Shown piece by piece: positions 2,212-45,206 of a stretch of DNA of 46,531 bases. The translations under genes were made by a program, and so were the position numbers. The notes under the pieces were generated by a model. It saw nothing but the letters and a program-made list of their open reading frames with translations, searched no databases and had not been told where the DNA came from. Position 1 is the stretch's first letter. The number at the start of each line of letters is the position of its first letter. Origin of the DNA: Streptomyces sp. WELS2 (GTDB lineage: Bacteria > Actinomycetota > Actinomycetes > Streptomycetales > Streptomycetaceae); assembly GCF_013870595.1 (NCBI RefSeq), contig NZ_JACBWZ010000002.1, positions 1 to 46,531 on the forward strand, in the 5' to 3' direction.

Positions 2212-2257
2212 GTGCCCCCGGCAGGATTCGAACCTGCGCACACGGCTCCGGAGGCCG
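2212..2257. repeat. attL: 46-bp duplicate of the tRNA-Arg 3' half
   Basis: Identical over all 46 bp to 45161-45206. It corresponds to the tRNA-Arg sequence from the anticodon arm to the 3' end, plus one base. The identity stops sharply on both sides (A versus G before it, GGC versus TTG after it). The 5' half of a tRNA is absent here, so this is an attachment-site remnant and not a second tRNA gene. Confidence 0.95.
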
Positions 2258-10124: not shown

Positions 10125-10129
10125 AGTCC

Positions 10130-16333: not shown

Positions 16334-18655
16334 TCAGACGGGCAGGTAGGGGCTGGGTTTGCCGTGCCAGCTGATGGCCAGGGCGTCACGAGCCCGGGTG
16401 GTGGCGACGAACAGCAGGGAGCGGGCCTTGCGCTGCTCGCGCTCGTAGCGGGGCGGGTCTTCGGTGCGGTAGCGGTCGATGACATGGGTTCGGGGGATGA
16501 TGCCGTCGCTGGCGCCGACGATCGCTAGGCGCTGGTACTCCAGGCCCTTGAAGCGGTGCATGGTGCCGACGTGGACCTCCCCGTCTCCCTTGGGGCCCTC
16601 CTTGGTGAGCTCGGCACAGGTGATGCCGGCCTTGGTGATCAGGTAGTACATGGTCTGGCTGACCATGTCGCGGTCCGCGACGCACACGGCGATGTGGCCG
16701 CTGGGGTCGCGGGGGGAGCCGTGGTCGTCGGTGGACAGTTCCTGCCGCCAGGTGGTCAGAGTTTGCGCGAGGCCGGCGAGTTCGTCGTCCCAGGTGTCGT
16801 AGGAGGTGAAGACCGGGGCGGGGCCATGAAGGACCGAGCGGTATCCGGCAAGGTTGTCCGGGCCGTCGTCGAGGTCGTCGTAGGTGACCTTCTGACCTGG
16901 GTTGCGGGGCTCGACGACGCGGAGGGCCTCGGCGAGGATTTCCTTGGTGGTGCGGTAGCTGAGGGTCAGGCGTGAGGAGCGGCCCCGGATGTTGATGCCG
17001 AGAGCGCCGAGCGCGACTTGGTGGTCGTAGATCCGCTGGTGGGTGTCGCCGGCGATGAAGATGTCGTTGGGCAGGTCCGGGTCGGCCATGGCCCGCAGCA
17101 TCTTCCAGTGGGCCGGGCTGAGGTCCTGCGCTTCGTCGACGACGATGTGCCGGTAGCGGTAGCCGAGGTAGCGCATGCCGGAGCTGTTGTCGCGGTGGAT
17201 GAGATCTATGCCGCCGATCTCCTCCTTGTACTCGCGCCGGGCGCGGATCTTCGCAGCGCGTTCGATCTCGAAGCGGGCGGCGCGCTCGGACGCCTGCCCC
17301 CAGGTCTCCACACCGAGCTTGTCGAGGCGTGCGGTGAACTGTTCGATCAGCTTCCAGATGTGATTGCGCTCCGGCCGGGTCAGGGAACGGCCGCGGCCGG
17401 CGCGGCGGGCCTGGAAGTAGGCGGAGCGCGTGGGGATGGACTGGCCGAGGATGACCTGCTCCCACTCCTCGAGGAGGAACTCCGCCTCCCAGCGGTGATC
17501 GTCCAGTTCGGCCAGGAGCTGGCGCATCTCGTTCAGTGCCACATGGTTGTAGACGCGCTGCTTGGCGCGGCCGGGCGCGGTGTTCTCGCCCAGGACGCGG
17601 GCGGCGAGCTGGTCGATGTGGGCGATCTCGACGCGGGCGAGGAGCGTGGGGTCGACGAGGGATGCCAGGCGCAGTCGCAGGTCGGTGGTGAGGTTCTTGG
17701 TGAACGTGGTCAGCAGGATGGGCTTGTTGTTGCCGGGAGGCAGTTGCTCGGCGAGGTGCTTGACCCGGTGCAGGGCGACGATGGTCTTGCCGGTGCCGGG
17801 GCCGCCAGAGACGCGTGCGGGGCCGTTGTAGTGGCGGCGGACGATGCGTTCCTGAGTGGGGTGGAGGAACACTTTCCAGGCCCGGAAGTCGCCTTCGTCG
17901 ATGGCCGCTTGTACGGCGTCATCGACGGCGGTGACTTTGGTGCGGGTCAGCGCTGTGGCGAAGTCGCCGAGGTCGGGTTCGTGGCCGAGCTCGACGGGAC
18001 CGGTGATCTCCTTGCGGACTTCGTCGATGGTCATGCCGGCGGCGAGGCCGTAGAGGACGTCCTTGGACAGCAGTGGCGCGCCCTCGACGAGCTGGTCCAG
18101 CTCGGCGCTGTCGGTGACGGCGAGGGCCAGCTCGATCAGCTGCTCCGCGACGCCCAGCTTCCGCAGATCGTCAGCGCTGTAGGCGGCGAGCAGCGGCGGG
18201 GTCTGCACCGGTGGCGCCGGGGGCTGTGGCGCGGGGGCTGGTGCGGCGCTGGGTGCGGTGTCGTCCGGCTCGGCCGGGGTGAGGGTGATGCCGGCTCGGC
18301 GCAGGGCGCTGTCGCCGACGACGGCGAGGTCGACGAACTCGATCTCGCCGGTGATGCGGTTGACCGCGACCTGGAGTTCCTCGTAGACGTCCTTGCGGTG
18401 GCGGACGGCGATGACCAGCCAGCTCTCGGTGCCGTCCGGGTCGACTCCGGCCGGGGCGAGCAGGGCCCGGTAGGAGTCGTTGACGCGCGCGGACCAGATA
18501 CGCGAATCGCCCTTGAGCTTCTTGAGCCTGAGGCCCGGCTGGTTGGGGTTGTTCCGGAAGACGTGGCAGAAGTTGTAGAACTCGGCTTTGACCGAGCGGT
18601 CGAGCTTGTACAGCTCCTGTTCGGCCTTCCGGTACAGGCTGAGCCGGGCGGTCAT
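16334..18655 (-). CDS. RelE/ParE-fold domain fused to UvrD-type helicase
   Basis: 773 aa. Residues 1 to about 115 look like a RelE/ParE/HigB-type toxin fold (LSLYRKAEQELYKLD, LRLKKLKGDSRIWSARVND, YRALL and a final VRHRKDVYEEL strand). An Ala/Pro-rich linker spans about 130-165, followed by a short helical region. The rest is a superfamily 1 helicase: Walker A GGPGTGKT near 281, VVDEAQD near 505, GDTHQRIYDHQ, YRTTKEIL, GTMHRFKGLEYQ and LLFVATTRARDAL. It unwinds or translocates on DNA 3' to 5' by family precedent. The ATG overlaps the previous stop by 4 nt, so it is coupled to the big helicase. It occupies the last place in the DISARM-like operon. Confidence 0.87.
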   Translation of the reverse strand: MTARLSLYRKAEQELYKLDRSVKAEFYNFCHVFRNNPNQPGLRLKKLKGDSRIWSARVNDSYRALLAPAGVDPDGTESWLVIAVRHRKDVYEELQVAVNRITGEIEFVDLAVVGDSALRRAGITLTPAEPDDTAPSAAPAPAPQPPAPPVQTPPLLAAYSADDLRKLGVAEQLIELALAVTDSAELDQLVEGAPLLSKDVLYGLAAGMTIDEVRKEITGPVELGHEPDLGDFATALTRTKVTAVDDAVQAAIDEGDFRAWKVFLHPTQERIVRRHYNGPARVSGGPGTGKTIVALHRVKHLAEQLPPGNNKPILLTTFTKNLTTDLRLRLASLVDPTLLARVEIAHIDQLAARVLGENTAPGRAKQRVYNHVALNEMRQLLAELDDHRWEAEFLLEEWEQVILGQSIPTRSAYFQARRAGRGRSLTRPERNHIWKLIEQFTARLDKLGVETWGQASERAARFEIERAAKIRARREYKEEIGGIDLIHRDNSSGMRYLGYRYRHIVVDEAQDLSPAHWKMLRAMADPDLPNDIFIAGDTHQRIYDHQVALGALGINIRGRSSRLTLSYRTTKEILAEALRVVEPRNPGQKVTYDDLDDGPDNLAGYRSVLHGPAPVFTSYDTWDDELAGLAQTLTTWRQELSTDDHGSPRDPSGHIAVCVADRDMVSQTMYYLITKAGITCAELTKEGPKGDGEVHVGTMHRFKGLEYQRLAIVGASDGIIPRTHVIDRYRTEDPPRYEREQRKARSLLFVATTRARDALAISWHGKPSPYLPV

Positions 18656-21600
18656 CGGGTGGTGCCTTCCGTGTCGGGGAGCTGTTCGAGCAGAGTGTCG
18701 AGGTGGTCGAGCCATTCGGCGGCCGTGCGGACGGTCCAGCCGTCCTCGGCGTAGGCGGCGTCGCGACGCTGGGCCTCGGCGTCGTCGTCACCGTAGTGGT
18801 CCAGGACCACGGCGATCTTGAGGCCGGGCATCGGCCAGGCGAAGTCCACCTGCCAGCGGCTCGGGCCGAGCTCGAAGCCGAAGACGGGGGCCTGTTTGCC
18901 ATGGTTGGCCAGCGTCTCGGCAAGACGCAGGAGATCGGGAGCCTCGTCCGGCTCCTCCCGCAGGATCTCCAGGATGTCCTCATCCCAGGCCGCGTCCCGG
19001 ATGATCCGACGCAGGGCGGCTTCGGCCGCCGAGTCGGCGCTCGGCTCTGGGGCGGCGGGCCGCGCAGCCGGCTCGACTGCCGGTGCAGTCGCGGCGGTGA
19101 GCGAGTCGAGTTCGCCGAGGCCGCCGCAGACGGCGAGGACCTCGACCTCGAAGTCGGCGGCCCGGCTGGCGGCGAGTTGGACGCCGTCGCCGCCGGCGAG
19201 GGAAAGGAACTGGGTGATGTTGGTCCAGTACAGCCAGGACCGCCACCGGAGCTTGTGTTCCTCCGTGTCGAGAACGGCCTCGGTGTCGTCGAGGACGGTC
19301 AGGGCCGTCCACCGCAGGTTCTCGGGATCGGCCGCGTCCAGGGCGAAGACGATCGGCAGACCGTGTTCGTCGCGGGTGCGGAAGAGGTGGACCGGACCGA
19401 TGCCCGCCGCGTCGGGCACGGCCGGCTTGGGCCGGTGTTCGCTTGCCCCGAGGGAGGCGAGCTGGTCACGCAGTGCGGTGACGAGTTCGCCACGCTTGCC
19501 GGTCGCGGCCACGGCGGTCGTGTCGGGTACGGCGGTCAGACCGGTGACCAGGGCACGGGCGCGGCGGGCCCAGCGCTCGCTGTCCGGGTCGCGCAGGTAG
19601 GCGATGAGCGTGTCGATCGGGTTGGTGAAGACGGCTTCGCCGAAGTGGGCCCGGTTCCCGCCGTACTGCTCGTACGCCGCCTTCGCCTGCTCCTGGGCGG
19701 TGCCTCGGTACGGCGGCCAGACGGGCTTGGTGCGGGTGGGACGCTGCTCGAACAGATCGATGTCCGCCCAGGTGATCTGGAAGACGATCTTTCCGTCGGC
19801 GCGGAGCCTGGTGCGCCGTGCGGCGTCGTCGGCGATGCGGTTGTGCTCCCGGCTGGCGTGGAAACGGAAGCCTTCCAGGTAGACGTCCACGCTCTGCTGG
19901 GGGCCGCCGACCCGGGTGAAGGTGAAGTCCGTGCGGGTGCCTTCGCGTTGACGCTGGGCGGTCAGCCGCCAGTGCAGGACATCGCTGCCGTCGGTGAACC
20001 GCAGATGCCCACTGGCGTGGCCGTCCTCGTCCAGAGAGGCGTCGCCGGTGACCTTCACCCAGTCCCGCAGCGCGGCCAGGAAACGGGCCTCCAGGTCGGA
20101 TTCGACCTGGGCGTCCAGCCCGACCAGCCCGGTGTGTTCCACCTGGGTGGTCTGCCAGCCGTCCTCACCCTCGCCGGTGAACAGCAGCGATTCCAGCATG
20201 GTCAGCGTGGCCTGCCGCGAGACGACGTCCTGGAACTGTTCGGGGGTGTAGCGGTGCAGGCAGCGGTGGCAGGCCCGGCGCTGTTCTTCCGCGCACGGGC
20301 ACGCCTTGAGGCTCTCGTACGCCTGGGCGAGGGTGTCGCGGAAGGCGGCCGGGTCGGTGAGCCGGTCGAGGTAGCCGGTGCCTCCGGGCAGGGAGTCGAA
20401 CAGGACCAGGAACCAGCGGCGCTCCCCGCTGTCGTTGTCCGGCATCGACGCGACCGTGGTGTCCAGGTGCTGCGGGTCGCCACCGAAGTGCAGGTCGACA
20501 CCGAGCCGCAGGGCGGCGCGGAAGGAGTGCACCTTGGCGTCCACATCCGCGGTCGCAGCAGGGATCAGGATCCGCAGGGCCTCGGTCTGCAACTGGTGGG
20601 CCAGCAGCACCGGTTCCTGGGTGACGCTTTCCCTCTTCTTGCCGCGGCGCAGCGGGCACCAGGGCCGGTGGTGCTTGAGCTGGGGGGCGCGGGCCGCGGC
20701 GGAGTCCAGGGCATCGGTGTCATGGTCGAAGACCGGACGGCCGTCCGCGCTCGCGGCCCCGCAGGCGGTGCACACATGGAAGGGGTTCAGCCGGACCAGA
20801 TGGCCGGCGAAGTCATCACGCGCAGGGGCGTCGTAGCGGACCGGGCCGACGTTGATCCGGCGGATCACCGCGCTGCGGCAGTAGTCCACGCCGAAGGTTT
20901 CGCGGGCGTGCCTCCACGAAAGGCCCCGCTCGATCTTCTCGACCGGAATATCAACCGCGTCCACGACCGTGTAGGCGCGGCGGTCACGGTCGTCCTTGTC
21001 GTCCCGGATCCGGGCGTCCTCGCGCTTGTCGCGCGAGGTGACGGTGGCCGGCTCGACGACCTGGAACAGGCAGGAGCCGTCGTCGGCGATCTGGCTGGTC
21101 TTGCAGCGAGGGCACGCAGAGCGGTCCTCGGCGGCGTTCTCGGTACGTACGTAGCCGCAGCCCGGACACACCCGCCAGGTCCGCCACTCCTGACGCCCGC
21201 CCGTGGACAGCTCCAGGCCGGTGATCTCATGGCGGTAGCCGTTGACGTAGAAGGTGTTGCCCGGCGCCAGCTCCTGGATCGCCAAGCGACGCGGCCGCTC
21301 GTAGGAGAGGGTCTCGGAGGAGTACACCACCTTGCCGGTCTTCGGATCGATGCCGTCCTCGCCGTACAGGGTCGCCGACAGCGTCGTCGCCGAGTCGATC
21401 AGCGCGTAGTTCGGCAGCAATCCAAGATCGCACAGCGCGCTCTGCGCCGAGGTGTCGCCCAAGTGCAGCAGCTGCCGGCCCACACCGCGTCGTTCAGCGT
21501 CCAGCTCCGCCTTCTGCCGGGCCTGGTCAGGGTCGGAGTCGTGCAACTCGCCGTGGGCCTCGTCGATTTCACGCAGCCGCGCCCGCAGGGCGTCCTCTGC

Positions 21601-24600
21601 GCGCCGCCACTCGCGTTCGGCCTCCTCCACCGCGCTCCGCAGGCCATGGGTCGCGTACGCCGTCAGGTCTGCCTTGGCCTGGTCGCTGACGCCCGTGGGG
21701 AACAGCCGCAGAAACCCCTTGGCCAGCTCCTCGCCCTGCGCGATGGCCACCTCGACCAGATCGGCAAGGTACCCCGACGGCCCGAACAGACGGGGTGCTT
21801 TGTGCGGCAGCGCGCGCAGCACGATGCCGTCCGCTCGCACCAGGCGGCCGGCGGCGGCCAGATCGAGCAGGTGCGCCAGGTACTGCCGGCGCAGGATCTC
21901 GACGGCGGACAGATAGCAGCCGGGCGGCACGATGGTGCCGGCGATCAGGTCCTTGGGACGCTCCAGGAAGTACAGGTCACGTCGCCGCCGGTCCGGGATG
22001 GTCAGCAGGAAGGCATTGCCGGTACGGCGCCCGGCTCGCCCGACCTGCTGTGCGTAGGAGGCCGGGCGGCGCGGCAACGCGGCCAGTACGACGGCTGACA
22101 GGTCACCGATGTCGATACCCATCTCCAGCGTCGGCGTACAGGAGAGCACATTGGGGTCCTTGAAGCCCCCGCCGCGCTTGAACGCCTCCTCGACCTTCTC
22201 CCGCTGGTGGCGCGTGAGCATGCCGGTGTGCTCCGCTGTGACCACCTGATAGGTGCCCGCCTGGAGATACAGGCGCCGGTAGTAGTCGGTGGCGTAGTCA
22301 CGGTCGCGGTGGTGTATTCCCAGGCCCTCGGGCCGGTCGCCGGCGACCAGGCGGCCCTTGCGGCACCGGTAGGACGGGCAAGGCTGGTCATGCCACTGAT
22401 CCAGCAGCGACGGGTGCACGGTCTGCTCCCAGAAGCACACCGGGCACCGCACATACGAGATGCGGACCTGCTCGTCATCCAGCAGCTGCGCCTCGATATT
22501 GCCGGGCTTGAGCCCGTACACCCGCACCGAGGTATCATTCGGCGTACGGGCCGACAACAGCCCCATCGAGGCAAGCTCGGGCAGCAGACGGCTCCACAGC
22601 TCGGGCACCAGCTCACGGGGCAGCTCCAGACACCGCCCCGCCCACCGCTCGTACCAGGACAGCCGACCGGTCGCGAAGTCGAACTCACTGCCGCTCTTCG
22701 GCTGACCGAGAAGGAACACCGGAGCGGCGATCCCCTTCGGGAAGGCCCGCATGCCCGGCGCCCGCTTGCCCCAGATGAAGTACCGGCTGGTGCCGGCTTC
22801 GTCGATGTACTTGTCCAGCCACTGGTGGGCGACCGCACCACGGGTACGCAGCCGCTCCAGGAAGATGCGGACGAACGCCAGGTACCGGGCATCGTCCTGC
22901 GGCACCAGCGGCAGCCCGTCACGGACGCACTCCTCATGCACCTGCCGGGCCAAGGCGATCACGGCCGCCGGGTCATCGATGCGCACCTGCGCGGCGGCCG
23001 TCCGGGTCAGCTCAAGCGTACGGCCGTTGCGGGACCGGAACCCGAACTCCATCAGCGTCTCGAACGCCAGCCGCTGACCGATCAGCCGCCAGGTCTTCAG
23101 GTCACCGCCGCGGCCCTGCCCGGACAACAGCCGGTCCACTCCCTTAAACCCGTGCAGGTCCGGGGGCACCACCGCGGACAGGGTGTCCTTGTCCGTCGTG
23201 GCCTCGACAACGTTCGCGATCAGGTCGTTCAGCGCGGTCGGCTCAGCGTGCCGCAGATGATCCGCCAGCAGCGCGCGCAGCGAGAAGGTGTACGAACGGT
23301 TCGCGACGAACCCGGCCCGGTGCGCGGCATCCTGCACCGAGTCGTTGAACATCAGCGTCTTGTCCTCGCGAAGCTCCTTGTCCAGCTCCCCGCCGGTGAA
23401 CAGCTGGGTGATCGACGCCGCGGCCATCGCTGCGGCACCGGTACCCAGGTAGCGGATCGCGTTGCGCTCGCCGCAGGCCGGACACCAGTCTTCCTTGGCC
23501 GCCGTGTTCGCCGTCTCCCCGAAGTTCACCAGCACGAACGCCGAATCCCGGGCCGTCAGCCGCGGCTCCTTCGTCTCCCGGTCGTAGTCGTTCAGCGGAT
23601 CGGGCAGCCGCAGCCGCTTGCGGGTGCCGTCCAGCACCATCAGGATGCCGCCCGCCCCCTGCGAGGCGGCCGAGCCTTGCTTGCCGCTGGCCGCAGTGAG
23701 CAGCGCCGCGCCGGAACCCTCCCGGGCTTCACGATCAGTCGCGGCGATCAGGTTCCGTACCCGCGCCTTGTCCTGCCCCAGCGAGGCCCGCCGGATCTTG
23801 TGCGTATCGAACTGGACATCATGGTCGTCACTCTCGGGCGAGAACACCGCCCAGCCCGACCGCCCGCAGTCACGGCAATAGATCGCCGGCAGGAACAAGT
23901 TCGCGCTCTGACCCGAGGTCGCCGTCGTCACCGGAGCGGTACGGCCACCATCGGCCGCACTGGCGTCGGCCATGCCAGCCGCATCCCACCTGAACTGCGC
24001 CTTCGGCCACGGCAGCACCCCGCGCAGCAGCCGCGACACCGAACGCGCCCACTGGTGCACCTCCACATGCACAAACGGCCGCGGCGCCGCAGGCGAGGAC
24101 TCCGGGTCCCGGGCGTACGACAGCAGCGCGACAAACCGTGCCAGCGCCTCCGCCGCCTTCTCCGGCTGCCGGGCCACCGCCTCCGACCAGCCCGCCGCCC
24201 CGGCCCGCCACATCACATCCAGCACCTCGGCGCTGGTCTTCACCTCGCCACCCAGCGCCTGCATCACCGCGCGGGTGAACAGATGCCGCTTGAGATTCCC
24301 GCCGAGGACAAAGGGATCCAGATCACGGACGTCCGTTACCTTCTGGATCAGATCCAGCAGCGCCTCCTCACCGGAGGCCGGATCGGGCAGCGCCAGCAGC
24401 TCGTCCGGCGTCGGCATCGGCTGCATCATCACAGCGCCGAGCGGAAGGAACTCCTCCACCGACAGCCGGTTTTCCCCGACGATCGCCTCCGGCGTGAACT
24501 CCGTCCCGAAGACATGCGTGGCCACCTCCAGCAGACGTGCCACACCGTCCTCGTCCGTGCCCGACGCCAGCGTGGCCGAGGTCGCCACGGGACAGATCTT

Positions 24601-25380
24601 CCCCAGCGGCCGGCCTTCCTCGGACGCGCCCACGGCCGCCGCGAGCCGTCGCAGCAGCATCCCGACGTCCGTGCCCTGCGCGCCGTCGTAGGTGTGGAAC
24701 TCGTCCACGACGACGTAGCGGATGTCCGACCCCCGCCACAGCGGCGCGTCGTCGGCGCGCTGGAGGAGAAGGTCCAGCATCTTGTAGTTCGTTATCAAGA
24801 TGTCCGGCGGCGACAGCTGCATGTCCGAGCGCCGCGTCAGCACCTTCTCGTACCGCGTCGCGGCCCGCTCGCCGATGTACAACCCCGCCGACAGCTTCCC
24901 CAGTGCGGCATTCTCCGTGAGCAGCTCGTTGATGCGCTGCGCCTGGTCGGTGGCGAGGGCGTTCATCGGGTACAGGAACACCGCCTTGACCCCGCCCCTG
25001 CCTGCCTCGCGCTCCCGGCGACAGTGGTCCAGCACGGGGTAGAGGAACGACTCCGTCTTGCCGGAACCGGTACCCGTGGTGACCAGCGTTGGCTGAGGGG
25101 TGTGCCCGTGCGCGGAGCTCAGCCGCGCGAAGGCGACTGCCTGGTGTGCGTAGGGCCGGAACCCCTCCCGCTGCCACTCCAGGTGCTTACGCCATGTCTC
25201 GTCGGCGACGGTGAACGGCGTCCGGATCCGCAGATACGGGCCCCGGAACATCCCCGACGTCTCATCCCCGAGAAACCGGTGCAGCGCCTCCCGCGCCCCC
25301 TCATCGGTGAGCGCGTACGTGGTGGACAGGTACTGCAGCAGGCTCTCCTTGAGCCCCCGCGCCTGAAGCGTCGGCCTCAC
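18652..25380 (-). CDS. Giant DEAH helicase with DUF1998 and Vsr/DUF559-like tail (DrmA/DrmB-like)
   Basis: 2242 aa from GTG 25380, which overlaps the methylase stop by 4 nt. Superfamily 2 motifs: TTGTGSGKTESF near residue 103, VVVDEFHTYDG near 225 and TSATLASG near 265. Then a very long insert carries Cys pairs of zinc-ribbon type (CRDCGRSGW, CPACGERN). The second helicase half has TPTLEMGIDIGDL and QQVGRAGRR near 1080-1116. A DUF1998 region at about 1540-1710 has VCTACGAA, FDSLPGGTGYLDRL and CHRCLHRY. The end (about 2160-2235) contains GFELGPSRWQVDFAWPMPGL and KIAVVLD ... RRDAAYAEDGWTV, recalling Vsr/DUF559 nucleases. Functionally it combines what DISARM splits between DrmA (helicase) and DrmB (DUF1998). 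Role: DNA translocation in anti-phage restriction, by family precedent. Confidence 0.85.
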   Translation of the reverse strand: MRPTLQARGLKESLLQYLSTTYALTDEGAREALHRFLGDETSGMFRGPYLRIRTPFTVADETWRKHLEWQREGFRPYAHQAVAFARLSSAHGHTPQPTLVTTGTGSGKTESFLYPVLDHCRREREAGRGGVKAVFLYPMNALATDQAQRINELLTENAALGKLSAGLYIGERAATRYEKVLTRRSDMQLSPPDILITNYKMLDLLLQRADDAPLWRGSDIRYVVVDEFHTYDGAQGTDVGMLLRRLAAAVGASEEGRPLGKICPVATSATLASGTDEDGVARLLEVATHVFGTEFTPEAIVGENRLSVEEFLPLGAVMMQPMPTPDELLALPDPASGEEALLDLIQKVTDVRDLDPFVLGGNLKRHLFTRAVMQALGGEVKTSAEVLDVMWRAGAAGWSEAVARQPEKAAEALARFVALLSYARDPESSPAAPRPFVHVEVHQWARSVSRLLRGVLPWPKAQFRWDAAGMADASAADGGRTAPVTTATSGQSANLFLPAIYCRDCGRSGWAVFSPESDDHDVQFDTHKIRRASLGQDKARVRNLIAATDREAREGSGAALLTAASGKQGSAASQGAGGILMVLDGTRKRLRLPDPLNDYDRETKEPRLTARDSAFVLVNFGETANTAAKEDWCPACGERNAIRYLGTGAAAMAAASITQLFTGGELDKELREDKTLMFNDSVQDAAHRAGFVANRSYTFSLRALLADHLRHAEPTALNDLIANVVEATTDKDTLSAVVPPDLHGFKGVDRLLSGQGRGGDLKTWRLIGQRLAFETLMEFGFRSRNGRTLELTRTAAAQVRIDDPAAVIALARQVHEECVRDGLPLVPQDDARYLAFVRIFLERLRTRGAVAHQWLDKYIDEAGTSRYFIWGKRAPGMRAFPKGIAAPVFLLGQPKSGSEFDFATGRLSWYERWAGRCLELPRELVPELWSRLLPELASMGLLSARTPNDTSVRVYGLKPGNIEAQLLDDEQVRISYVRCPVCFWEQTVHPSLLDQWHDQPCPSYRCRKGRLVAGDRPEGLGIHHRDRDYATDYYRRLYLQAGTYQVVTAEHTGMLTRHQREKVEEAFKRGGGFKDPNVLSCTPTLEMGIDIGDLSAVVLAALPRRPASYAQQVGRAGRRTGNAFLLTIPDRRRRDLYFLERPKDLIAGTIVPPGCYLSAVEILRRQYLAHLLDLAAAGRLVRADGIVLRALPHKAPRLFGPSGYLADLVEVAIAQGEELAKGFLRLFPTGVSDQAKADLTAYATHGLRSAVEEAEREWRRAEDALRARLREIDEAHGELHDSDPDQARQKAELDAERRGVGRQLLHLGDTSAQSALCDLGLLPNYALIDSATTLSATLYGEDGIDPKTGKVVYSSETLSYERPRRLAIQELAPGNTFYVNGYRHEITGLELSTGGRQEWRTWRVCPGCGYVRTENAAEDRSACPRCKTSQIADDGSCLFQVVEPATVTSRDKREDARIRDDKDDRDRRAYTVVDAVDIPVEKIERGLSWRHARETFGVDYCRSAVIRRINVGPVRYDAPARDDFAGHLVRLNPFHVCTACGAASADGRPVFDHDTDALDSAAARAPQLKHHRPWCPLRRGKKRESVTQEPVLLAHQLQTEALRILIPAATADVDAKVHSFRAALRLGVDLHFGGDPQHLDTTVASMPDNDSGERRWFLVLFDSLPGGTGYLDRLTDPAAFRDTLAQAYESLKACPCAEEQRRACHRCLHRYTPEQFQDVVSRQATLTMLESLLFTGEGEDGWQTTQVEHTGLVGLDAQVESDLEARFLAALRDWVKVTGDASLDEDGHASGHLRFTDGSDVLHWRLTAQRQREGTRTDFTFTRVGGPQQSVDVYLEGFRFHASREHNRIADDAARRTRLRADGKIVFQITWADIDLFEQRPTRTKPVWPPYRGTAQEQAKAAYEQYGGNRAHFGEAVFTNPIDTLIAYLRDPDSERWARRARALVTGLTAVPDTTAVAATGKRGELVTALRDQLASLGASEHRPKPAVPDAAGIGPVHLFRTRDEHGLPIVFALDAADPENLRWTALTVLDDTEAVLDTEEHKLRWRSWLYWTNITQFLSLAGGDGVQLAASRAADFEVEVLAVCGGLGELDSLTAATAPAVEPAARPAAPEPSADSAAEAALRRIIRDAAWDEDILEILREEPDEAPDLLRLAETLANHGKQAPVFGFELGPSRWQVDFAWPMPGLKIAVVLDHYGDDDAEAQRRDAAYAEDGWTVRTAAEWLDHLDTLLEQLPDTEGTTR

Positions 25381-28300
25381 GGCTTCGGCACCTCCTGCTT
25401 CACCGGATCCCACTCACCGCGGGCGACGGCATCGTCGAGTCGCTTCTGGAAATAGGCATGCGCCTCGCGCATCTCTGTTTCCCGGTCCGCCTTATAGAAC
25501 GGGGCGGTATAACCATCAGGGACAGGCGTTTTGGGCATGGGGTTGTGCTCAGGATCCTGCTGGTACGCGGCGAAGGCCGGATCCTGCCTGTATGCCTCGA
25601 ACTGCGCCCAGCTTTCCTTCGTCTGCCGCTGACCGATCGTGCGTGCATTGCCCGCAATCTTCCAGCCCTCGGCGTCGAACCAGGTCACGGCCTCGTACTT
25701 CTGCAGCACGGGGAACCGACCCCGGTACGCGGCGATGAGCGCATCGGCGTCCATGCCGAGCCACACGGCAACCAGCGCGTCGATCTCCACCAGGGCGGAG
25801 CGCCGGGCCCGCTCGCTGCGGAGAGGGGTTTCGGGGCGCCAGTCCGGGGTGACGTCTTGGAGAGGCTGGAGGCCCGGCCAGTTGTACGCCCAGGTCTCTT
25901 GGTCAAGCCAAGCGGCGTCGTACAGCTCGGCCCAGAGGTCTGCATACGCGCGGGTAAGGCAGTTGAGACGGAGGGTACGGAGAAGGAGCGCTGGCGCGAG
26001 TGGATGGTGAGGCGCAGGCGCTGGAAGGCCGCTTGCCCGGCCGACATCGAGATGGCCTGTGCCTGTTACTCGCAGCAGGTAGTCGATGGGAAGGGCGGCC
26101 CACATGCCAGCCTGGAGAACGGTGCTGCGATTGTCCAGAATCCATGCGCTACGAACAACGTTTGTGTGCGCAGCGCCACGCGGGATAAGAGTTGCGTAGA
26201 GACTACGCTCGGTGTCCGGCGCAATCATCTCTCGCCAGGCCAGCCGATAGAACGTGGTGTAGCGCCGACGCGCTCGCTGCACCAGCATTGCTTCAACTCG
26301 GTCTGGAGTCACCTGCGCCTCGGGTGTGTTCTCTGCTCTGGCAATTTGAAGTCGAGCGCGGGCGACCGCCTTCTCGCTGCAGCGCAGGCGAGTTAGAACT
26401 CGGTAGTCCACCCAACGGTCCTGAGCGGCCAGATATGCCTGACCCCTACCCGCGGACCGAACATACTCCGTGTCAGGCACGAAGTCAGGGGAAAGAGTGA
26501 CGAGGTCGGTGCCATACGGTTCGTTCGTGTTGGCGTCATGACGCTTAAACACCGGGGTAGCGACACTCAGTTGGGTGCCTTTAAGAATGACGTGACGCCA
26601 GCGGTCCGGCTGGTACTCCTGGCCTGTGATGGGGTCGGGGCGGTTGTAGTCGATCAGGTTGTCCTTCTTGGCGCCGCTCTCGTCGTATCCCCTTGTGACC
26701 TGTGGCGATAGCACAGCCAGCCGCACCGGGTAGTCCGCCAGAGCCGCGATAGCGGACGCTTCCGCCGTGCTGACGGGGAACAGAAGACGGGCCTGCTCCA
26801 CCGGCTTGTCTGCTTCGTCCAACAGTCGCTGCCAGGTGGACAGCAGATCTGTGTTCACCCGGACAACACGAGCTCGATGCGGACGCTCGTCGTACGCTCC
26901 ACCGCGATACCGGATACCTGGGCCTTCTCCAGAACCGTCATGCTGAGAAGACAGGCGTAGCGCATCAGTCGAGACCAGCCAAGAAAGGTGGTCGAATTCA
27001 ATCTCTCTCGGATTTCCGTAGACGTGTACTCCGAAGTGGCTGGACTCGCCGACGGGCTTCTGGAAGAAGCGGTGGCCTGGATTGAAAAAATCCCCGTGGA
27101 TGCGCAGTCTCCTATATGCCGCCTCCCGGAGTTTGGCCTCCTTTTCGCCGGTGAAGTGCGTGTCTGGGTGCACCATGCCAGCGGTCCCGTCCGTTGAGGT
27201 GTGCGCCCACACCTGACACATGAACGCCCGGTACAAATCCGGTTGGGTTCCCGTCAAAAGTGGGTACATCTGTGGCGAGCCAAACACGGCGACTTGGGCC
27301 GTCGTGTTTGTAAGTTCGCCAACAATGTACTGGTGAGCGTCGGAAGACCCCAGAACTTTTCGGCGCCGACGGTCCTTTTCGGCGATGGACGCCTTTTCCT
27401 CCAGCTCAAACCATGGCTCGTGCTCCGCGAGCACAGCCGATTCGCTCCAGCGGGGGCGCACCCAAGGCGGATTCCCCACCTGGATATCGAATCCGCCGCC
27501 TCGTGCGAAGACCAAAGCGAACTCAAGCTCCCAGTGCAGGAAGCCCTGCTCCTTGGCGATGTCCCGTACCTCACGGAGCCACGGGAAGCGGTCCTCCGGG
27601 TTGCCGATGTCCATGCCCATGAAGTGCGGAAGCGTCTCCTCGAAGGTTTTGAGCGCATCGAGGCTTGTGAAGCTGTCGATGAGCGTGCCTTCGGGCACGT
27701 CGGCCGTGCCCAGCATCGCTTCCAGAAAATCGAGCCAGTCGTCGAGATCCTTGAGCGGTACGATCGTCCGCCGCTCGGATGCCTTGGGCTTCGGTGTCGT
27801 GGCCTTCTTCTCTGCTTTCGGCTTCAGCTCCTTGACCTCTACCACCGCATCATCGGTGGTCAATTCGAGGTCTTCGAAACTTGTTTGCTCATGGCCGAGC
27901 GAGAACAGAGCGGTCGCCTCGACGAAGCGCGGTACGGGCCTCGGAGCCGGAACCGTCGCTGGCTCTGAGGCAGCCGGAGTCAGCGGCTCCGGCTCCATTC
28001 CGCCACCGCTGAGAAGCGCAGCGAGGCTGTCCGTCCCGGCGACGACCGAGTGCGCTGCGTACTCACCGGCTGTTCCGTCCAGCAGCCCGGCTTTGTCGAC
28101 CGGCCAGAACCACAACGCACACCAGGCGTCCATGATCTTCTTCAAGCGCCAGTACGGAGTGTCCGCAGCGTTGAAGAGGTCTTCGAGGACCTGTTCCTTA
28201 CGGACGGCCTGGTCGGGACGGTGGAGGAATGCGTACTCGGGCTCAGCCGGGTCGGCACCCCACACGTCGATGCGCCGGGCGATCGCCTGCTCGGAGAGCT

Positions 28301-30866
28301 CCATCCGCTTGACGACCAGCGACCACAAGAACTCCGCCCGCCGCGCGGCGTCCCGGAGCCGCGTGAACTGCGACACCGGCTCCTTCTTCGATCTGCCGGA
28401 CTTGCTGCGCTTGGGGCGCTGGAGGATGCCCTTCTTCCAGGCGGCGAGCTGCTCGACGCCCTCCTTGGCGAGTTCCTTGGCGTCCTTGGATCCCGCGACC
28501 GCTGCCCATCCCGGGCTCGGCAGCAGGAACTGGTGCACCGCGTCCTCGGGCAGGGTCTGCGGCTCTCCCTCCTTGAGGAACGGCAGCGGCGTCGGGGCCA
28601 AGGCCCCCTTGGCCTTGAGCCATTCCTTCCCGGTGACGTCGTCGGCCGCGTAGACGGCCCGGCGGGCGCCGATGAGGGAGTTGCCTCGGCGCAGGTGCAG
28701 GCCGAACCACGGGGCCCGCATGCCCGGGTGCATGGTGTTGAGCCAGAGCGAGACCTCGGCCAGTTCGACGCCGGTGGCGTTGAGGTCGACGCCGTAGGCG
28801 TTGTGCAGGGCGATGTACGCCTTGACTTTCTGCTTCTCGGTGAGGGCGTCGGCGGTCGGGATGGTGGCGCCCAGTTCGTCCTGCCTGCGGCGCAGGTACT
28901 CCTCGGCGACCTGGTTGATCGCCTCGTTGAGGAAGGCACCGGAGCCGAGGGCCGGCTCGCAGATCTTGTACTTCAGCAGCTCGGATGCGCGGGTCCTGAC
29001 GACGTTGCCGTCGGCGTCGCGCTCCTGGTCGAGGCGGTGCTTGAGGGTGAGCTCGACCGTGACCTGGGTCAGTGACTCCGGGGTGTAGTACGAGGCGGAG
29101 GTTTCGCGGTCCCGGCCGGCGAGGCGGTAGACGAAGGAGCCCTTCGGGTACTTCTTGACGCCGCGCAGGCCCTTGCGGGCGTCGTCCTCGGTGTAGTGGA
29201 CGAGGGTCTTGTCGGGGTACTGGTCCTGCTTGTGCGCGGGGATGAGCCAGGAGCCCTTCTCCGGGTCGCCGCCCTTGGCGACCTCGCACAGCTCTTCCTC
29301 GGCGATGATGCCGGTGTAGGACATCAAGCCTTCGTAGACGGCGCCGAGCTGGTTGATGCCGAGGTTGCGGTAGGAGATGAAGCCGCCTCGCTCGCCGCGT
29401 TTGCCCTTCTTCATGGTGAGGAGGCGCAGCACCTCGTGCAGGGCGGCGTTGCGCAGGCGCAGGTCGAGCCAGCGCGGGTCGGTGTCCTCGTCGCAGCGGG
29501 GGTCGATGACGCCTCGGCCGATGAGGCGGACTGCGGTGGGTTCGAAGAGTTCGCTGCGCAGGGGTTCGAAGCGCAGGCCGCGGTCCTCGCTGCGGCGGGC
29601 GGCTTTCGCCTTGCGGGTTTCCTCGTCGTCGCCGGGCTGGTCGTCGGTTTCCTCGGTGCCGTAGGGGCGGTGGCCGAAGTTGACCTTGTTGAAGAGGACG
29701 TTCAGGGATTCGTAGAGGTGGAAGCCGTTGCGGGCTGCCTCCTCGATGAGTTCCTCGTCGCGTTCGACGAGCTCGCGCAGGCGGGCCATGGAGTAGCCGG
29801 CCTCGTAGCTGCCGTCGTCGGCGGGCAGGATGCCCAGTTCGGGGCGGGCTTCGGCGTAGAGGAGGAAGAGGATCCGGTAGAGGTAGCGCAGGGACTCCCG
29901 GGTGAGTTCCCGGGCGAAGGGGATCTTGGGGCTTTCGATGTCGGCCGGGGTGACGTTGTTCTTCGGGTCGGCCATCCGGGCCAGGACTTCGTTGGCGATG
30001 ATCTCGACCGAGCGCTGGAGGCCGTGGCGCAGTTCGCCGGAGACGCCGGCGGCGTTGGCGCTGGAGGACTTAAGCAGGGCGTCGATGGCCCGGCTCTGGT
30101 CGTTCTCGCCGGGCCGGAGCATCTCCAGGCTGAACAGGACGGCGATGGTGGCGAGTTCGCCTTGTTGGGTGCGGTCGTTGCGTTCCAGTGCCGCGTCGAT
30201 GTTGGCGGCAAGGTAGCGGCCCTCGTTCCAGGACTGGCGGTCGGCCAGGACGAGTACGCCGCCGCACAGCAGCAGGACGAAGCGGGGGTGGGGTCCGCCG
30301 GCCTCGCCGAGTTCGCTCTGGAAGAGCCAGGACGCCAGGGCCGTGCTGGTCTCGTAGGTCTCGCTCGCGCTGACCCGCAGGGGGTGTAGCAGCCGCCCCG
30401 GGCCGGTGGCGTCGAGGGCGGTGTCATTGTCGGCGGCCCAGCCGCAGTCCAGGGCGATGATGCCGTGGCCGTGGTAGGCCACGGTCAGGGTCTGATCGCG
30501 TCCGGCGCGGTGGACGGTGAGCTCGGAGGGCGTGGCCTCGAAGCCGAGGGCGTGCAGGACGGTCTGGTGCCACTCGGTGAGCCGTTTGCGCCACTCGGGG
30601 TTGTTGTGGGTGTTCAGCCGGGCGTCGTCTCCGGCGTCGCGCTCGGCCGCCTCGGCGAAGTAGCTCCGGACGTCCTCGGAGAGGTAGGTGCCGCGCAGGG
30701 AGCGGAGCAGCTCGCGCGGTGTCTTGCGCGGGTCGTTCTCGTCGCCCTCGCGCCGGGTCCAGCTACTGAACAGGCCCTTTTTGAGGTCGGTTGCGAGCTG
30801 TTCGGCGAAGTAGTGCGCGGAGAAGTACTCGCCGCGGTTGCTGAAGGAGTCGAACTCGGTGCTCAT
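25377..30866 (-). CDS. Very large N6-adenine DNA methylase (DrmMI/PglX/Eco57I-like)
   Basis: 1829 aa. An N-terminal region of about 600 residues has no clear catalytic motif. It is followed by SYYTPESLTQ, the SAM-binding motif I CEPALGSGAFLNEA (near 636) and YGVDLNATGVELAEVSLWLNTM. The catalytic NPPW motif appears only near residue 1132, leaving an insertion of nearly 500 residues between them. That insert includes a charged, low-complexity stretch near 980-1040. About 480 residues after NPPW probably recognise target DNA. The family methylates adenine N6 to mark self DNA. No PD-(D/E)XK motif is seen in it. The ATG overlaps the DrmD-like stop by 4 nt. It is larger than typical DrmMI or PglX proteins. 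Confidence 0.87.
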   Translation of the reverse strand: MSTEFDSFSNRGEYFSAHYFAEQLATDLKKGLFSSWTRREGDENDPRKTPRELLRSLRGTYLSEDVRSYFAEAAERDAGDDARLNTHNNPEWRKRLTEWHQTVLHALGFEATPSELTVHRAGRDQTLTVAYHGHGIIALDCGWAADNDTALDATGPGRLLHPLRVSASETYETSTALASWLFQSELGEAGGPHPRFVLLLCGGVLVLADRQSWNEGRYLAANIDAALERNDRTQQGELATIAVLFSLEMLRPGENDQSRAIDALLKSSSANAAGVSGELRHGLQRSVEIIANEVLARMADPKNNVTPADIESPKIPFARELTRESLRYLYRILFLLYAEARPELGILPADDGSYEAGYSMARLRELVERDEELIEEAARNGFHLYESLNVLFNKVNFGHRPYGTEETDDQPGDDEETRKAKAARRSEDRGLRFEPLRSELFEPTAVRLIGRGVIDPRCDEDTDPRWLDLRLRNAALHEVLRLLTMKKGKRGERGGFISYRNLGINQLGAVYEGLMSYTGIIAEEELCEVAKGGDPEKGSWLIPAHKQDQYPDKTLVHYTEDDARKGLRGVKKYPKGSFVYRLAGRDRETSASYYTPESLTQVTVELTLKHRLDQERDADGNVVRTRASELLKYKICEPALGSGAFLNEAINQVAEEYLRRRQDELGATIPTADALTEKQKVKAYIALHNAYGVDLNATGVELAEVSLWLNTMHPGMRAPWFGLHLRRGNSLIGARRAVYAADDVTGKEWLKAKGALAPTPLPFLKEGEPQTLPEDAVHQFLLPSPGWAAVAGSKDAKELAKEGVEQLAAWKKGILQRPKRSKSGRSKKEPVSQFTRLRDAARRAEFLWSLVVKRMELSEQAIARRIDVWGADPAEPEYAFLHRPDQAVRKEQVLEDLFNAADTPYWRLKKIMDAWCALWFWPVDKAGLLDGTAGEYAAHSVVAGTDSLAALLSGGGMEPEPLTPAASEPATVPAPRPVPRFVEATALFSLGHEQTSFEDLELTTDDAVVEVKELKPKAEKKATTPKPKASERRTIVPLKDLDDWLDFLEAMLGTADVPEGTLIDSFTSLDALKTFEETLPHFMGMDIGNPEDRFPWLREVRDIAKEQGFLHWELEFALVFARGGGFDIQVGNPPWVRPRWSESAVLAEHEPWFELEEKASIAEKDRRRRKVLGSSDAHQYIVGELTNTTAQVAVFGSPQMYPLLTGTQPDLYRAFMCQVWAHTSTDGTAGMVHPDTHFTGEKEAKLREAAYRRLRIHGDFFNPGHRFFQKPVGESSHFGVHVYGNPREIEFDHLSWLVSTDALRLSSQHDGSGEGPGIRYRGGAYDERPHRARVVRVNTDLLSTWQRLLDEADKPVEQARLLFPVSTAEASAIAALADYPVRLAVLSPQVTRGYDESGAKKDNLIDYNRPDPITGQEYQPDRWRHVILKGTQLSVATPVFKRHDANTNEPYGTDLVTLSPDFVPDTEYVRSAGRGQAYLAAQDRWVDYRVLTRLRCSEKAVARARLQIARAENTPEAQVTPDRVEAMLVQRARRRYTTFYRLAWREMIAPDTERSLYATLIPRGAAHTNVVRSAWILDNRSTVLQAGMWAALPIDYLLRVTGTGHLDVGRASGLPAPAPHHPLAPALLLRTLRLNCLTRAYADLWAELYDAAWLDQETWAYNWPGLQPLQDVTPDWRPETPLRSERARRSALVEIDALVAVWLGMDADALIAAYRGRFPVLQKYEAVTWFDAEGWKIAGNARTIGQRQTKESWAQFEAYRQDPAFAAYQQDPEHNPMPKTPVPDGYTAPFYKADRETEMREAHAYFQKRLDDAVARGEWDPVKQEVPKP

Positions 30867-33800
30867 CGGTCGGCGTCGCCTCCTTCAGTGGCGGTGAGGG
30901 GTTCGAGGACGGCGAGCAGGCGCAGCATCGGCTCGCCCGTGGTCTCCAGGGATTTGATCAGGCTCAGCCGCCTGCTGGCGCTCAGGTTCACGCCGCGCTT
31001 GCCGGTCCCGTTGATGGAATGCAGCGCTTCCTGCTGCCAGTGCACGACGCGCTTGCGGTACGGAGCCAAGGTGGCCTCGATCTCCTTGGCATACGCCTCC
31101 CGCAATTCCCGCAGATGCCGGTCGGCCCTGTCGATCGCGGCGGGCACCCGAGCGTTCAGCCCAGCGAGGTCACGGGGCGTGGCGCGGCCGGGCATCGTCG
31201 GACCGACCCCGTAGTCTTCCAAAACCTCTGGGGTCAGTGGCGTCACCTGAAGGTCCTCGGGGTCGCCGTGGACGGCCATCCACTCCACGATGGTGGGCCG
31301 GCCCAGCGCGTTGGAGCAGATTCCCTGAACGAGGAACGTCGGGGTACGCACCGAGGCGGCGAGCACCGGAGCCTGGTGACGGCCGATCTCCACGAGCACC
31401 TTGTCCGTCAGCCAGTCCAGGACCGGATGGACATCAGTGACGTAGGAGACGTTCGGCCACTGCGACTTCGAGGACTCCCGGGCCGCCTTGAGGCGCCGGT
31501 CCGCCAGGTCCTTGGAGAAGGTGATACGCATCCGCCCCGGCTCGGCCTTGCGCGGCAGGATCCGCTGCTCGTCAAGGTAGGACTTCGGCAGCGCCTTCAG
31601 CCGATACAACAGGTCACGCGGGGGTTCGAAGGCGATCGTGCCGTCGTCGTCGCGGCGCAGCGCGAGCTGGTCCTCGGGGTTGGGGCGGCAGATCTGACGC
31701 AGTGCCTCGTCGAAGTAGTCGGCGGTGGAGGAGAAGAGACGGGGGACGTTGGCCCGGCGGATCTCGGGGTGCTCCGGCACGGCGCCGACCTGGCCGAGCA
31801 GCCCGGCGAGGAACGCGGCGCCGCCCTGCTGGGACTGCTTGATGGACTCCTCGACGGTCCGGCCGGCGATCAGGTCCTGGGTGAGGCGGTTCTCCTCCTC
31901 CTTGGCCCGGTATAGACCGGTGACCGCTTCGGCCGACCCCTCGATCTTGTGCGCTTCCTCCTCACGCTTGAGGAGCTTCTCGCCCACCAAGCGGTCATCA
32001 AGGGTGCGCGGCTGCCCGGTCGTCTCGTCTGTCCGCCAGGGGATGTCGCTGGTGAGGATCAGGGCGCGGAACTGCGGCTGGTGCGTCTGGCCGTAGCGGT
32101 CGATGCGGCCGTTGCGCTGCTCGATCCGGATCAGGGACCACGGAAGATCGAAGTGGATCAGCCGGTGGCACTGCTGGTGGAGGTTGACACCTTCGGAGGC
32201 GACGTCGCCGGTGAAGAGGATGCGCACGGGGTCGTCCCGCAGCCCGAACTTCTCGACGATGGCTTGCTGCTCCTCGTCGCTGGTCGACTCGCCGTGCATG
32301 ACCTGCACCGCGCCGCCGAAGGCCAGCCACGGCTTCTTCTCATCCGGGCTGGCTCCTCCGCGGGGGAAGCCCAGTGCGGCCGGGACGGTCTGCGCGAGCC
32401 ACTTTAGGGTGGGGATGCGCTCGGAGAAGACCACCACCCGGGTCTCTGAGCCGGGGCCGACCCCCATCTTCCGCAGCTCGGCGACCAGTGCTGCCAGCTT
32501 CGCCGAGTCCTCGTCCTGGATCTTCTCGGCCAGGTCTCTGAGCTCCAGCAGGGCCGCCCGCTCTGCCTGCCGGACCGTTTCCCGCGCGGCAGGATCGACC
32601 TGGCGTGCCGTCTTCTGCCGGCTTTCTGCCACCTGTGCGGCAGGCGGTTCGTCCAGCGTCGCCAGGCGCGTCTTGACGGTCTCCAGCAAAGCCTTGTGCG
32701 AGGACAGGAACGACTTCAGCAACTGGTACGGCACCAGCTGGTGCCGGCTGACCGACGGCTGGTCCGGGTCGGCCGGGATCCAGCGTGTGGCCAGCTCCTG
32801 GAAGACGGCGAGTTCCTTCTCACCGGCCGGGACATGGATCGGCTGGGAGGGACCGCGGTCGGCCCAGGCACCCTTCAGCGAGTCACGGACCTCCGCCGAG
32901 GTCTTCGTACGCCGGATGTACAGGTGCTCGAGATCCTTCACCTCGTACTTGGACGGATTGGCGATGGCCGCCTCGTCCAGCATCCTGATCAGCTCGGCGA
33001 ACGAGGCGGCGTCCCCGTTGTGGGGAGTGGCCGACGCCAGGACGAGCGCGTCGGTCTTACGGGCCAGCAGACGGGCCAGAGCGTTGTTCTTGGTGCCCCG
33101 GTTGACGAGGTTGTGGGACTCGTCGATGACGACGGCATCCCAGTCGGTGTGCTCCAGGTGGTGCGCGTAGACGTCGCTTTTGAGCGTGTCCACGGAAATG
33201 ATGGCGCGCTTGAAATACGCGAAAGGATTGCGGCCGGCCGGGATGTCCTGCTGGATGCGCTGGATACCGGTGGAATCCAGGCGCACCAGCGGGATCGCGA
33301 ACCGGGTCCACAGCTCCCGCTGGAACTGCTCCAGCACATGCTGCGGGGTGACGACCAGGATGCGCTCGCCGCGCCCCCGCCGGATCAGCTCGGCCAGCAG
33401 CACGCCGATCTCCAGGGTCTTGCCCAGGCCCACCACGTCCGCGATCAGGATCCGTGGTTGCGGGTTCTTCATCGACAGCGCGAGCTCGGCCGGGCGCAGC
33501 TGGTGAACCTGCTGGTCCATGAGGAAGCCGTCGGCCAGGGCGAGGCCGTGCTCGGTCTGCGGCAGGTAGGTCTTGCGCATCACCGCTTCGAGGAACAGAC
33601 GGCCGCGCCGGTGGTTCGGTGAGTCGTCCGCGACGAGCTGCGTCTGCCGTGGGTCCAGTACCTGGATGTCGTCGAGCCGGCTGTAGAAGACGGCGTCCGT
33701 GCCGCGGACGAAGGGCGAGACGCCGGTGACCTCGACCATCCATCCGTCGTGCCGGGTGTCCTTGCAGTTGCGCACCAGCCACAGCTCGTCCCGCACCAGT

Positions 33801-33973
33801 ACCTGGGAACCCGGCGCGTAACCGGACGATGCGCGAGCCGGCCCCGTTGCCGGGGCATCGTCCGGCCTCCAGGCGTCCCACAGGGCATCGTCCTGGCCGC
33901 TTGCGGCCCCCGCCTCGACGCTCAACGACTGCTCCGATTCTTCCCTGCGGCGTGGCTGCCGCTCACACTCCAT
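30863..33973 (-). CDS. SNF2/RapA-type helicase (DISARM DrmD-like)
   Basis: 1036 aa. Superfamily 2, Swi2/Snf2 type: ADVVGLGKTLEIG near residue 180, VVIDESHNLVNRGTKNN near 283, LASATPHNG near 318. A coiled, charged region follows, then VVVFSERIPTLKWL, TGDVASEGVNLHQQCHRLIHFD and IRIEQRNGRIDRYGQ near 620. The C-terminal 350 residues match the long tail seen in RapA/DrmD-like proteins. DrmD defines class 1 DISARM, where it stands first, directly before the methylase, as here. No strong ribosome site precedes ATG 33973, and the first 40 residues are disordered, so the true start may lie slightly downstream. It begins 81 bp after the kinase gene. Confidence 0.85.
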   Translation of the reverse strand: MECERQPRRREESEQSLSVEAGAASGQDDALWDAWRPDDAPATGPARASSGYAPGSQVLVRDELWLVRNCKDTRHDGWMVEVTGVSPFVRGTDAVFYSRLDDIQVLDPRQTQLVADDSPNHRRGRLFLEAVMRKTYLPQTEHGLALADGFLMDQQVHQLRPAELALSMKNPQPRILIADVVGLGKTLEIGVLLAELIRRGRGERILVVTPQHVLEQFQRELWTRFAIPLVRLDSTGIQRIQQDIPAGRNPFAYFKRAIISVDTLKSDVYAHHLEHTDWDAVVIDESHNLVNRGTKNNALARLLARKTDALVLASATPHNGDAASFAELIRMLDEAAIANPSKYEVKDLEHLYIRRTKTSAEVRDSLKGAWADRGPSQPIHVPAGEKELAVFQELATRWIPADPDQPSVSRHQLVPYQLLKSFLSSHKALLETVKTRLATLDEPPAAQVAESRQKTARQVDPAARETVRQAERAALLELRDLAEKIQDEDSAKLAALVAELRKMGVGPGSETRVVVFSERIPTLKWLAQTVPAALGFPRGGASPDEKKPWLAFGGAVQVMHGESTSDEEQQAIVEKFGLRDDPVRILFTGDVASEGVNLHQQCHRLIHFDLPWSLIRIEQRNGRIDRYGQTHQPQFRALILTSDIPWRTDETTGQPRTLDDRLVGEKLLKREEEAHKIEGSAEAVTGLYRAKEEENRLTQDLIAGRTVEESIKQSQQGGAAFLAGLLGQVGAVPEHPEIRRANVPRLFSSTADYFDEALRQICRPNPEDQLALRRDDDGTIAFEPPRDLLYRLKALPKSYLDEQRILPRKAEPGRMRITFSKDLADRRLKAARESSKSQWPNVSYVTDVHPVLDWLTDKVLVEIGRHQAPVLAASVRTPTFLVQGICSNALGRPTIVEWMAVHGDPEDLQVTPLTPEVLEDYGVGPTMPGRATPRDLAGLNARVPAAIDRADRHLRELREAYAKEIEATLAPYRKRVVHWQQEALHSINGTGKRGVNLSASRRLSLIKSLETTGEPMLRLLAVLEPLTATEGGDADR

Positions 33974-35218: not shown

Positions 35219-35432
35219 CCGCACGACTCACCTTTCCGATGCGCCTCACTCGATCGGCGCTGCTGTCCGCACTACTGTAATTGGCCACGCCACCGGGCCG
35301 TGCGCCCATCGACTGATCAGGACAGCGGATGGCCCCGACGGCGGCCGGATCTCGCTCCCTGGCGCCGCCCCGCAGCCGATCGGGCTTCCGTCGTCCCAGA
35401 CGGCCGGCTGCTGAGCCGCCCGAGTCGCCTGC

Positions 35433-36671: not shown

Positions 36672-36672
36672 G

Positions 36673-43290: not shown

Positions 43291-43477
43291 CGGGCACAAG
43301 CTCCTTCGACACGGGGGCGGGCCGGCTGATCGTACGCGAAGCCTCCGAAGCGACGTCCGCGCATTCCCGGCACCGGCCACTTCCGTCGCAGACGCCTCTA
43401 CGGCCACCTGGGCTGCGATGACGCTGGAGATCCACTGTGTTCACCTGGTCAACGAGACCAGATAGGTGGTGGACGCC

Positions 43478-45160: not shown

Positions 45161-45206
45161 GTGCCCCCGGCAGGATTCGAACCTGCGCACACGGCTCCGG
45201 AGGCCG
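45161..45206. repeat. attR: 46-bp core repeat within tRNA-Arg
   Basis: Exact copy of 2212-2257. It spans from just past the tRNA 3' end through the T arm and variable region to the anticodon loop and the 5' side of the anticodon stem. Crossover somewhere in these 46 bp regenerates a full tRNA on the island's right side. Confidence 0.95.

Follow-up and report, generated by a model that had tools for sequence, protein, structure and literature searches.

A Ser/Thr kinase as a probable fifth component of an ARMADA type II operon in Streptomyces sp. WELS2

Which defense system is encoded by the large operon near the start of contig NZ_JACBWZ010000002.1 of Streptomyces sp. WELS2 (assembly GCF_013870595.1), and what sets it apart from its published relatives? 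Here we analyzed positions 1 to 46,531 of this contig, hereafter the window. An initial annotation had described a DISARM-like four-gene operon with merged DrmA/DrmB and a UvrD protein in place of DrmC, possibly a distinct system. Our analysis indicates that the window probably carries an ARMADA type II anti-phage operon plus a dedicated fifth gene for a soluble Ser/Thr kinase that would gate ArmD, on a ~43-kb integrative element at a tRNA-Arg gene. ARMADA was recently described and the four-gene core is thus already in print, while the kinase directly upstream of armA appears to be a new feature. This kinase (ORF 34055-35224) is what really differs, and it lies outside the span covered by the initial annotation.

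The core comprises four large, consecutive open reading frames (ORFs) on the minus strand:

30863..33973, minus strand: armA, BrxHII/RapA-like SNF2 helicase, 1036 aa (profiles; Walker A and DESH aligned with E. coli ArmA)
25377..30866, minus strand: armB, PglX-like adenine methyltransferase, 1829 aa (profiles, motif alignment)
18652..25413, minus strand: armC, YprA-like helicase with DUF1998 (MZB), 2242-2253 aa (profiles, alignment)
19744..20118 (approximate bounds), minus strand: putative Vsr-like nuclease segment of armC (aligned E, D, E/D-G...H residues)
16334..18715, minus strand: armD, RelE-like domain plus UvrD helicase, 773-793 aa (profiles, structure model)

The gene sizes and the three 4-nt junctions reported initially were confirmed on this strand. 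ArmC measures 2253 aa from its first GTG and 2242 aa from the GTG at 25380, and ArmD 793 aa, or 773 aa from the ATG at 18655. If the inner starts are used, 4-nt overlaps occur at all three junctions (30863-30866, 25377-25380, and 18652-18655), two of the three being decided by start choice.

ARMADA type II has four proteins in strict order: BrxHII/RapA-like ArmA, PglX-like ArmB, YprA/DUF1998-nuclease ArmC, and RelE-UvrD ArmD (Bell et al. 2025, PMC12458937). In the window, the order is likewise BrxHII-like, PglX-like, YprA-like, and RelE-GajB-like, with the RelE part weak by profile. ArmA matched the PADLOC model DrmD at 261 bits as well as SNF2, and ArmB matched type IIG restriction enzyme-methyltransferase (890 bits) and DrmMI (178 bits) models. 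ArmC has DEAD, Helicase_C, and MZB domains on one chain and scored 305 bits with DruE3 versus 52 with DrmA; a DruE-like best match agrees with the published relation of ARMADA II within the YprA family. Besides the Pfam MZB (DUF1998) match, alignment points to Vsr-type residues in the ArmC C-terminus, and a second, degenerate Vsr-like segment lies near residue 2186 in an alignment of 15 ArmC rows. ArmD matched UvrD and GajB-like profiles. Its N-terminus resembles RelE more faintly, with Pfam ParE_like at E 0.006 (below the cut-off), PDB entry 2khe, a "toxin-like protein," at E 0.013, and a modelled beta-alpha-alpha-beta-beta-beta order. A Foldseek search with the ArmD model returned UvrD-type helicases among the 50 matches listed and gave no confirmation of the RelE part.

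Each protein of the window operon aligns with its counterpart in the E. coli ATCC 8739 operon at 29-36% identity, and the Walker, S-adenosylmethionine (SAM)-binding, and NPPW motifs are retained. In ArmB, the SAM motif CEPALGSG is at residue 636, and NPPW lies in the motif at 1127. The Walker motifs and NPPW required in E. coli are therefore present in the window proteins, the published motif mutants being of strain NCTC 12900 and our alignment using ATCC 8739 proteins. Because gene order, domains, and catalytic motifs match, the core is almost certainly ARMADA type II. In E. coli, loss of any single one of the four genes removes protection, and infected cells remain viable (PMC12458937). The window shares with the NCTC 12900 and ATCC 8739 systems the four genes, their order, the catalytic motifs, the Vsr-like ArmC segments, and a mobile element at a tRNA gene. 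Unlike these, it adds a kinase with a private tail upstream of armA, and its ArmD has an insert with Ser512 (S512) and the RelE motif RxxVY instead of HDxA.

The DrmD and DrmMI scores could also be read as a class 1 DISARM locus in which DrmA and DrmB have fused and DrmC has been lost. In class 1 DISARM, however, DrmA and DrmB are separate genes, whereas here helicase and DUF1998 share a single DruE-like chain, a RelE-UvrD gene comes last, and no DrmC-type PLD nuclease was seen among the window proteins scanned (a subset of its ORFs). With the same order published as ARMADA II, we regard this reading as extremely improbable and rule out DISARM proper. The initial annotation had itself placed the locus beside DISARM rather than within it, and that view is borne out, as are its merged DrmA/DrmB-like protein and its RelE-UvrD protein. 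The proposal of a distinct system stands insofar as the operon is not DISARM, and otherwise largely gives way because the ARMADA type II literature has these four proteins in the same order; the PADLOC hits shown (2023 library) carry no ARMADA name. The suggested Hma-type affinity was rejected, since HmaA scored 148 bits on ArmA, below DrmD. Druantia type III resembles the locus in that DruE models are the top PADLOC matches of ArmC. Here, ArmC is instead accompanied by ArmA, ArmB, and ArmD, and no DruH match was found among the proteins scanned.

What, then, is the kinase gene next to this core? It lies on the same strand as armA, 81 nt upstream:

34055..35224, minus strand: Hanks-type Ser/Thr kinase, proposed fifth gene, 389 aa from GTG or 387 aa from the ATG at 35218
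34058..34114, minus strand: C-terminal tail of the kinase with the LRxxYA motif, residues 371-389

The protein matches Pkinase at E 2e-35, its model has a predicted local distance difference test (pLDDT) score of 84.6, and its top PDB match is the PknA kinase domain. Lys41, Glu59, HRD, and Asp152 are invariant across 59 aligned members.

Searched with an ArmA alignment, genome contigs yielded at least 563 confirmed relatives, and the best 80 of these were read (L-numbers are our handles for loci). Of the 80 loci, 79 have a same-strand kinase immediately upstream of armA; at the remaining locus, L129, the contig starts 294 nt before armA. Six further kinase ORFs are present in the 80 loci. Since this set is uninformative on more distant relatives, those were drawn separately. 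Among 148 genomes drawn evenly from the class, 14 had an ArmB match, the genome of the window included, and among 14 loci with ArmA from this draw the kinase was present in five (the window, L160, L161, L164, and L173); L162 has no ArmA and was left out. Searching the 100 nearest genomes with ArmD, with 31 places fetched, yielded eight loci with a strong ArmA match, all eight with the kinase. From 296 genomes drawn across the phylum came one new locus, L246, which lacks it. No kinase was found at the ARMADA loci of Tsukamurella (L155) or Pseudanabaena (L157), and armA of E. coli ATCC 8739 is preceded by a gene annotated as another DEAD/DEAH helicase. By eye, kinase-free loci have no common upstream gene among ORFs chosen by a crude GC3 rule. 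At L166, an ORF with a weak kinase likeness (84 bits) lies upstream on the opposite strand and was not counted as a system kinase. L158 offers 436 nt upstream in the tree set, and its wider upstream region has no annotated kinase in an incomplete gene table. L035 was assigned to no kinase group, and no ArmA was seen in the part of L159 that was read.

In an ArmA tree of 105 rows, made with a quick method and containing several long branches, kinase-bearing loci make up 91 of the 92 rows of one clade (Shimodaira-Hasegawa-like approximate likelihood ratio test 95). The exception is L129, kept unlabelled because of its contig edge. L031 and L125 were excluded for a short ArmA reading, and three locus pairs, identical in the tree set, look like one genome twice (L030/L075, L148/L160, and L096/L173). 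The simplest reading of this distribution is a single gain of the kinase followed by strict retention. Distances between kinases and between ArmAs agree (over 92 loci, Mantel r 0.895 with 0 of 2000 permutations; over 46 thinned loci, 0.911). A kinase match was found in 553 plasmid records, and the three that match best (59-69% identity) are also the three plasmids whose ArmD matches rank highest. The kinase is very probably a functional part of the system, and its position beside armA in the closest relatives suggests that this ARMADA branch is under phosphorylation control.

The kinases of the branch also share a distinctive C-terminus. A motif of the form [LIM][RA]xxY[AG] falls within the last 32 residues of 91 of the 93 ARMADA kinases, and the stricter [LIM]RxxYA in 85. 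Of 15 control kinases (nine from the same genome and six from neighbors, two of them seemingly one ORF), none has the motif, which rules out a tail general to Streptomyces kinases. The strict form is likewise absent from all 1095 other 32-residue segments of the same kinases. In a kinase tree, the 91 tail-bearing proteins form one clade (support 100/99). The two tail-less kinases, of L038 and L039, group with two control kinases from the genome of the window, and are therefore a different kinase at the same place in one sub-branch. These genes (L038 17116-18279 and L039 17400-18743) also lie upstream of armA, their ArmD partners have no insert, and the two loci are deep rows within the kinase-bearing ArmA clade.

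The best PADLOC matches of the window kinase are stand-alone PD-T4-6 models (187 bits), and it might accordingly be a separate abortive-infection kinase that travels with ARMADA. Against this speak the fixed position upstream of armA, the agreement of kinase and ArmA distances, and the tail unseen in controls, and we consider a mere fellow traveler quite unlikely.

If the kinase is a component, which protein would it act on? A change that accompanies it is in ArmD:

17162..17257, minus strand: armD insert before Walker B, residues 487-518, with the S512 codon at 17180-17182

The insert is present in 42 of 42 readable ArmDs encoded with a tail-bearing kinase, or 43 of 43 with a second S. scabiei copy whose kinase was verified. 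Four rows first dropped for a broken ArmD reading (L204, L209, L216, and L239) have it too, the Ser included. It is absent from both ArmDs paired with the other kinase and from all 11 readable ArmDs whose loci showed no kinase (nine plus L246 and L165), a group in which the upstream reading of L158 and L159 is incomplete. Of 23 solo RelE-UvrD proteins, 20 have no insert, two carry a short insert of a different type, and one is unreadable at this place. L164 was left out because its ArmD is cut by the locus end, L165 was first dropped and later read, and L225 and L241 were moved to the kinase and solo groups, respectively, after their surroundings were read. The length of the insert varies; the S512 position is Ser in 41 of 42 rows and Thr in one. 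In the model, S512 falls in a loop of low confidence that joins a long helix to the Walker B strand. The RelE motif changes as well. RxxVY, the usual form of active RelE, occurs in 37 of 43 ArmDs with a tail-bearing kinase and in 0 of 2, 0 of 11, and 0 of 22 ArmDs of the other-kinase, no-kinase, and solo groups, which mostly have HDxA. Such solo RelE-UvrD proteins, which have no strong ARMADA genes as neighbors, are common among Streptomyces genomes (L040-L058, L156, and L241).

These features can be assembled into a tentative model in which the actinobacterial ARMADA branch would be phospho-switched, although we consider it less likely than not. The part of ArmA, ArmB, and ArmC would be to sense, methylate, and process DNA; E. 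coli genetics by others shows that they are needed. ArmD would join a potentially harmful RelE-like RNase domain to a UvrD helicase. With its C-terminal LRxxYA helix, the kinase may dock on an Arm protein, and it would phosphorylate S512 in the ArmD loop beside Walker B; this phosphorylation would set whether the RxxVY-form RNase-helicase effector is restrained or released during infection. We infer the docking, the target, the direction of control, and defense by this copy; S512 itself is a doubtful candidate for the kinase target.

Several observations weigh against this model. ARMADA of E. coli defends without a neighboring kinase, and nine of the 14 actinobacterial loci of the even draw lack one (L163 and L165-L172). 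Essentially a single branch gave rise to the kinase, the tail, the insert, and the RelE change, which are therefore not independent. The tail helix is confident in the single-chain model (pLDDT ~86), so the tail may fold on the kinase itself. The 81-nt gap to armA, with no overlap, would allow separate expression, and the PD-T4-6 matches fit an independent defense kinase. Clade-specific Ser/Thr columns also occur in ArmD at 217 and 238, in ArmA (356, 685, and 894), in ArmB (598 and 1207), and in ArmC (559, 1169, 1366, and 1555; only 10 rows). S512 is thus ruled out as the sole branch-specific Ser/Thr and is not the sole candidate.

The columns outside ArmD fit an explanation that we find plausible, though we would not put it at even odds: the kinase works on ArmA, ArmB, ArmC, or a host protein, or is an infection sensor, and the ArmD insert is structural. 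ArmB has branch-specific linkers near 935-1032, and BREX type 2 pairs the kinase PglW with the methyltransferase PglX (PMC12839542). Yet these linkers are poorly conserved (0.33-0.41), ArmA has no branch-specific inserts, those of ArmC are small, and only ArmD has a well-conserved insert with one invariant Ser/Thr. Gating of ArmD by the kinase remains the reading we favor. BREX type 2 (Pgl) itself was ruled out for the locus. The likeness lies in a protein kinase adjoining a PglX-like methyltransferase, whereas PglW is large, with nuclease and sensor domains, and the window kinase has 389 aa and a kinase domain only; neither BrxC nor PglZ was matched among the window proteins scanned.

The upstream position and the 81-nt gap would also suit a kinase that governs expression of the operon or is merely regulatory, as with CapK, which acts via the repressor CapS. 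CapK/CapS are likewise encoded upstream of immune operons (PMC13373217), but CapK belongs to an anti-sigma-factor-like kinase family and has a repressor partner. The window kinase is PknA/PknB-like, no repressor partner was identified in a region that had no systematic search for one, and the ArmD changes would be left unexplained. We consider such a role unlikely.

The nearest published analogues are PglW of BREX type 2 (PMC12839542 and PMC4365076) and the kinases in CoCoNuT operons (PMC11090510). The word "kinase" occurs 0 times in the main text of Bell et al. (PMC12458937; supplements not covered), and among the literature listings and abstract openings covered, no paper was recognised as describing a kinase linked to an ARMADA-like operon. 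Our kinase-ARMADA pairing parallels PglW of BREX type 2, which was described in Streptomyces coelicolor. A kinase retained throughout one branch, together with its private tail and a corresponding ArmD loop, offers a direct handle on how ARMADA could be switched and kept from harming its host. If the kinase is a component, models built from the four E. coli genes miss a part in Streptomyces and relatives.

The operon itself varies. In one kinase-bearing sub-lineage (L186-L201), a varying cargo of 2.8-15.9 kb splits armB from armC; the sample was 16 genomes chosen for this gap, and ArmC was found in 16 of 16. Under a crude rule, 73 of 119 candidates were taken as gap ORFs, with DUF5753/HTH regulators (12) and AbiEii-like ATPases (12) among them, and some GmrSD and caspase domains also occur. 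The armB-armC gap is possibly a nesting site for other defense genes. On the Tsukamurella plasmid (L155 13697-19956), annotation splits the ArmC homologue into two overlapping genes, which adjoin further DUF1998, helicase, and UvrD genes.

Where does the operon reside? The surrounding features are as follows:

2212..2257: 46-bp direct repeat, proposed far attachment site
45161..45206: the same 46 bp inside tRNA-Arg (45160-45233), proposed near attachment site
43466..44860, plus strand: integrase-like gene beside the tRNA, Phage_integrase E 7e-5 (below the Pfam cut-off)
35433..42181, minus strand: Wadjet type I genes (JetD, JetC-like, JetB, and JetA), directly upstream of the kinase and outside the ARMADA operon

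The repeat is perfect and copies the 3' part of tRNA-Arg(CCG). Because it flanks ~43 kb and an integrase-like gene lies at one end, this region is probably an integrated mobile element carrying defense genes. The kinase is not part of Wadjet, since at L028 it precedes armA with no Wadjet gene matched there. Just downstream of armD, on the other strand, is a gene for an Mrr_cat-like restriction endonuclease (15195-16271; E 1e-4, just above the cut-off). The same element holds genes for an adenosine deaminase, a UDP-sugar dehydrogenase, a DegT-type aminotransferase, a carbamoyltransferase, and a radical SAM protein (3335-12576), possibly a small biosynthesis cluster riding with the defense genes.

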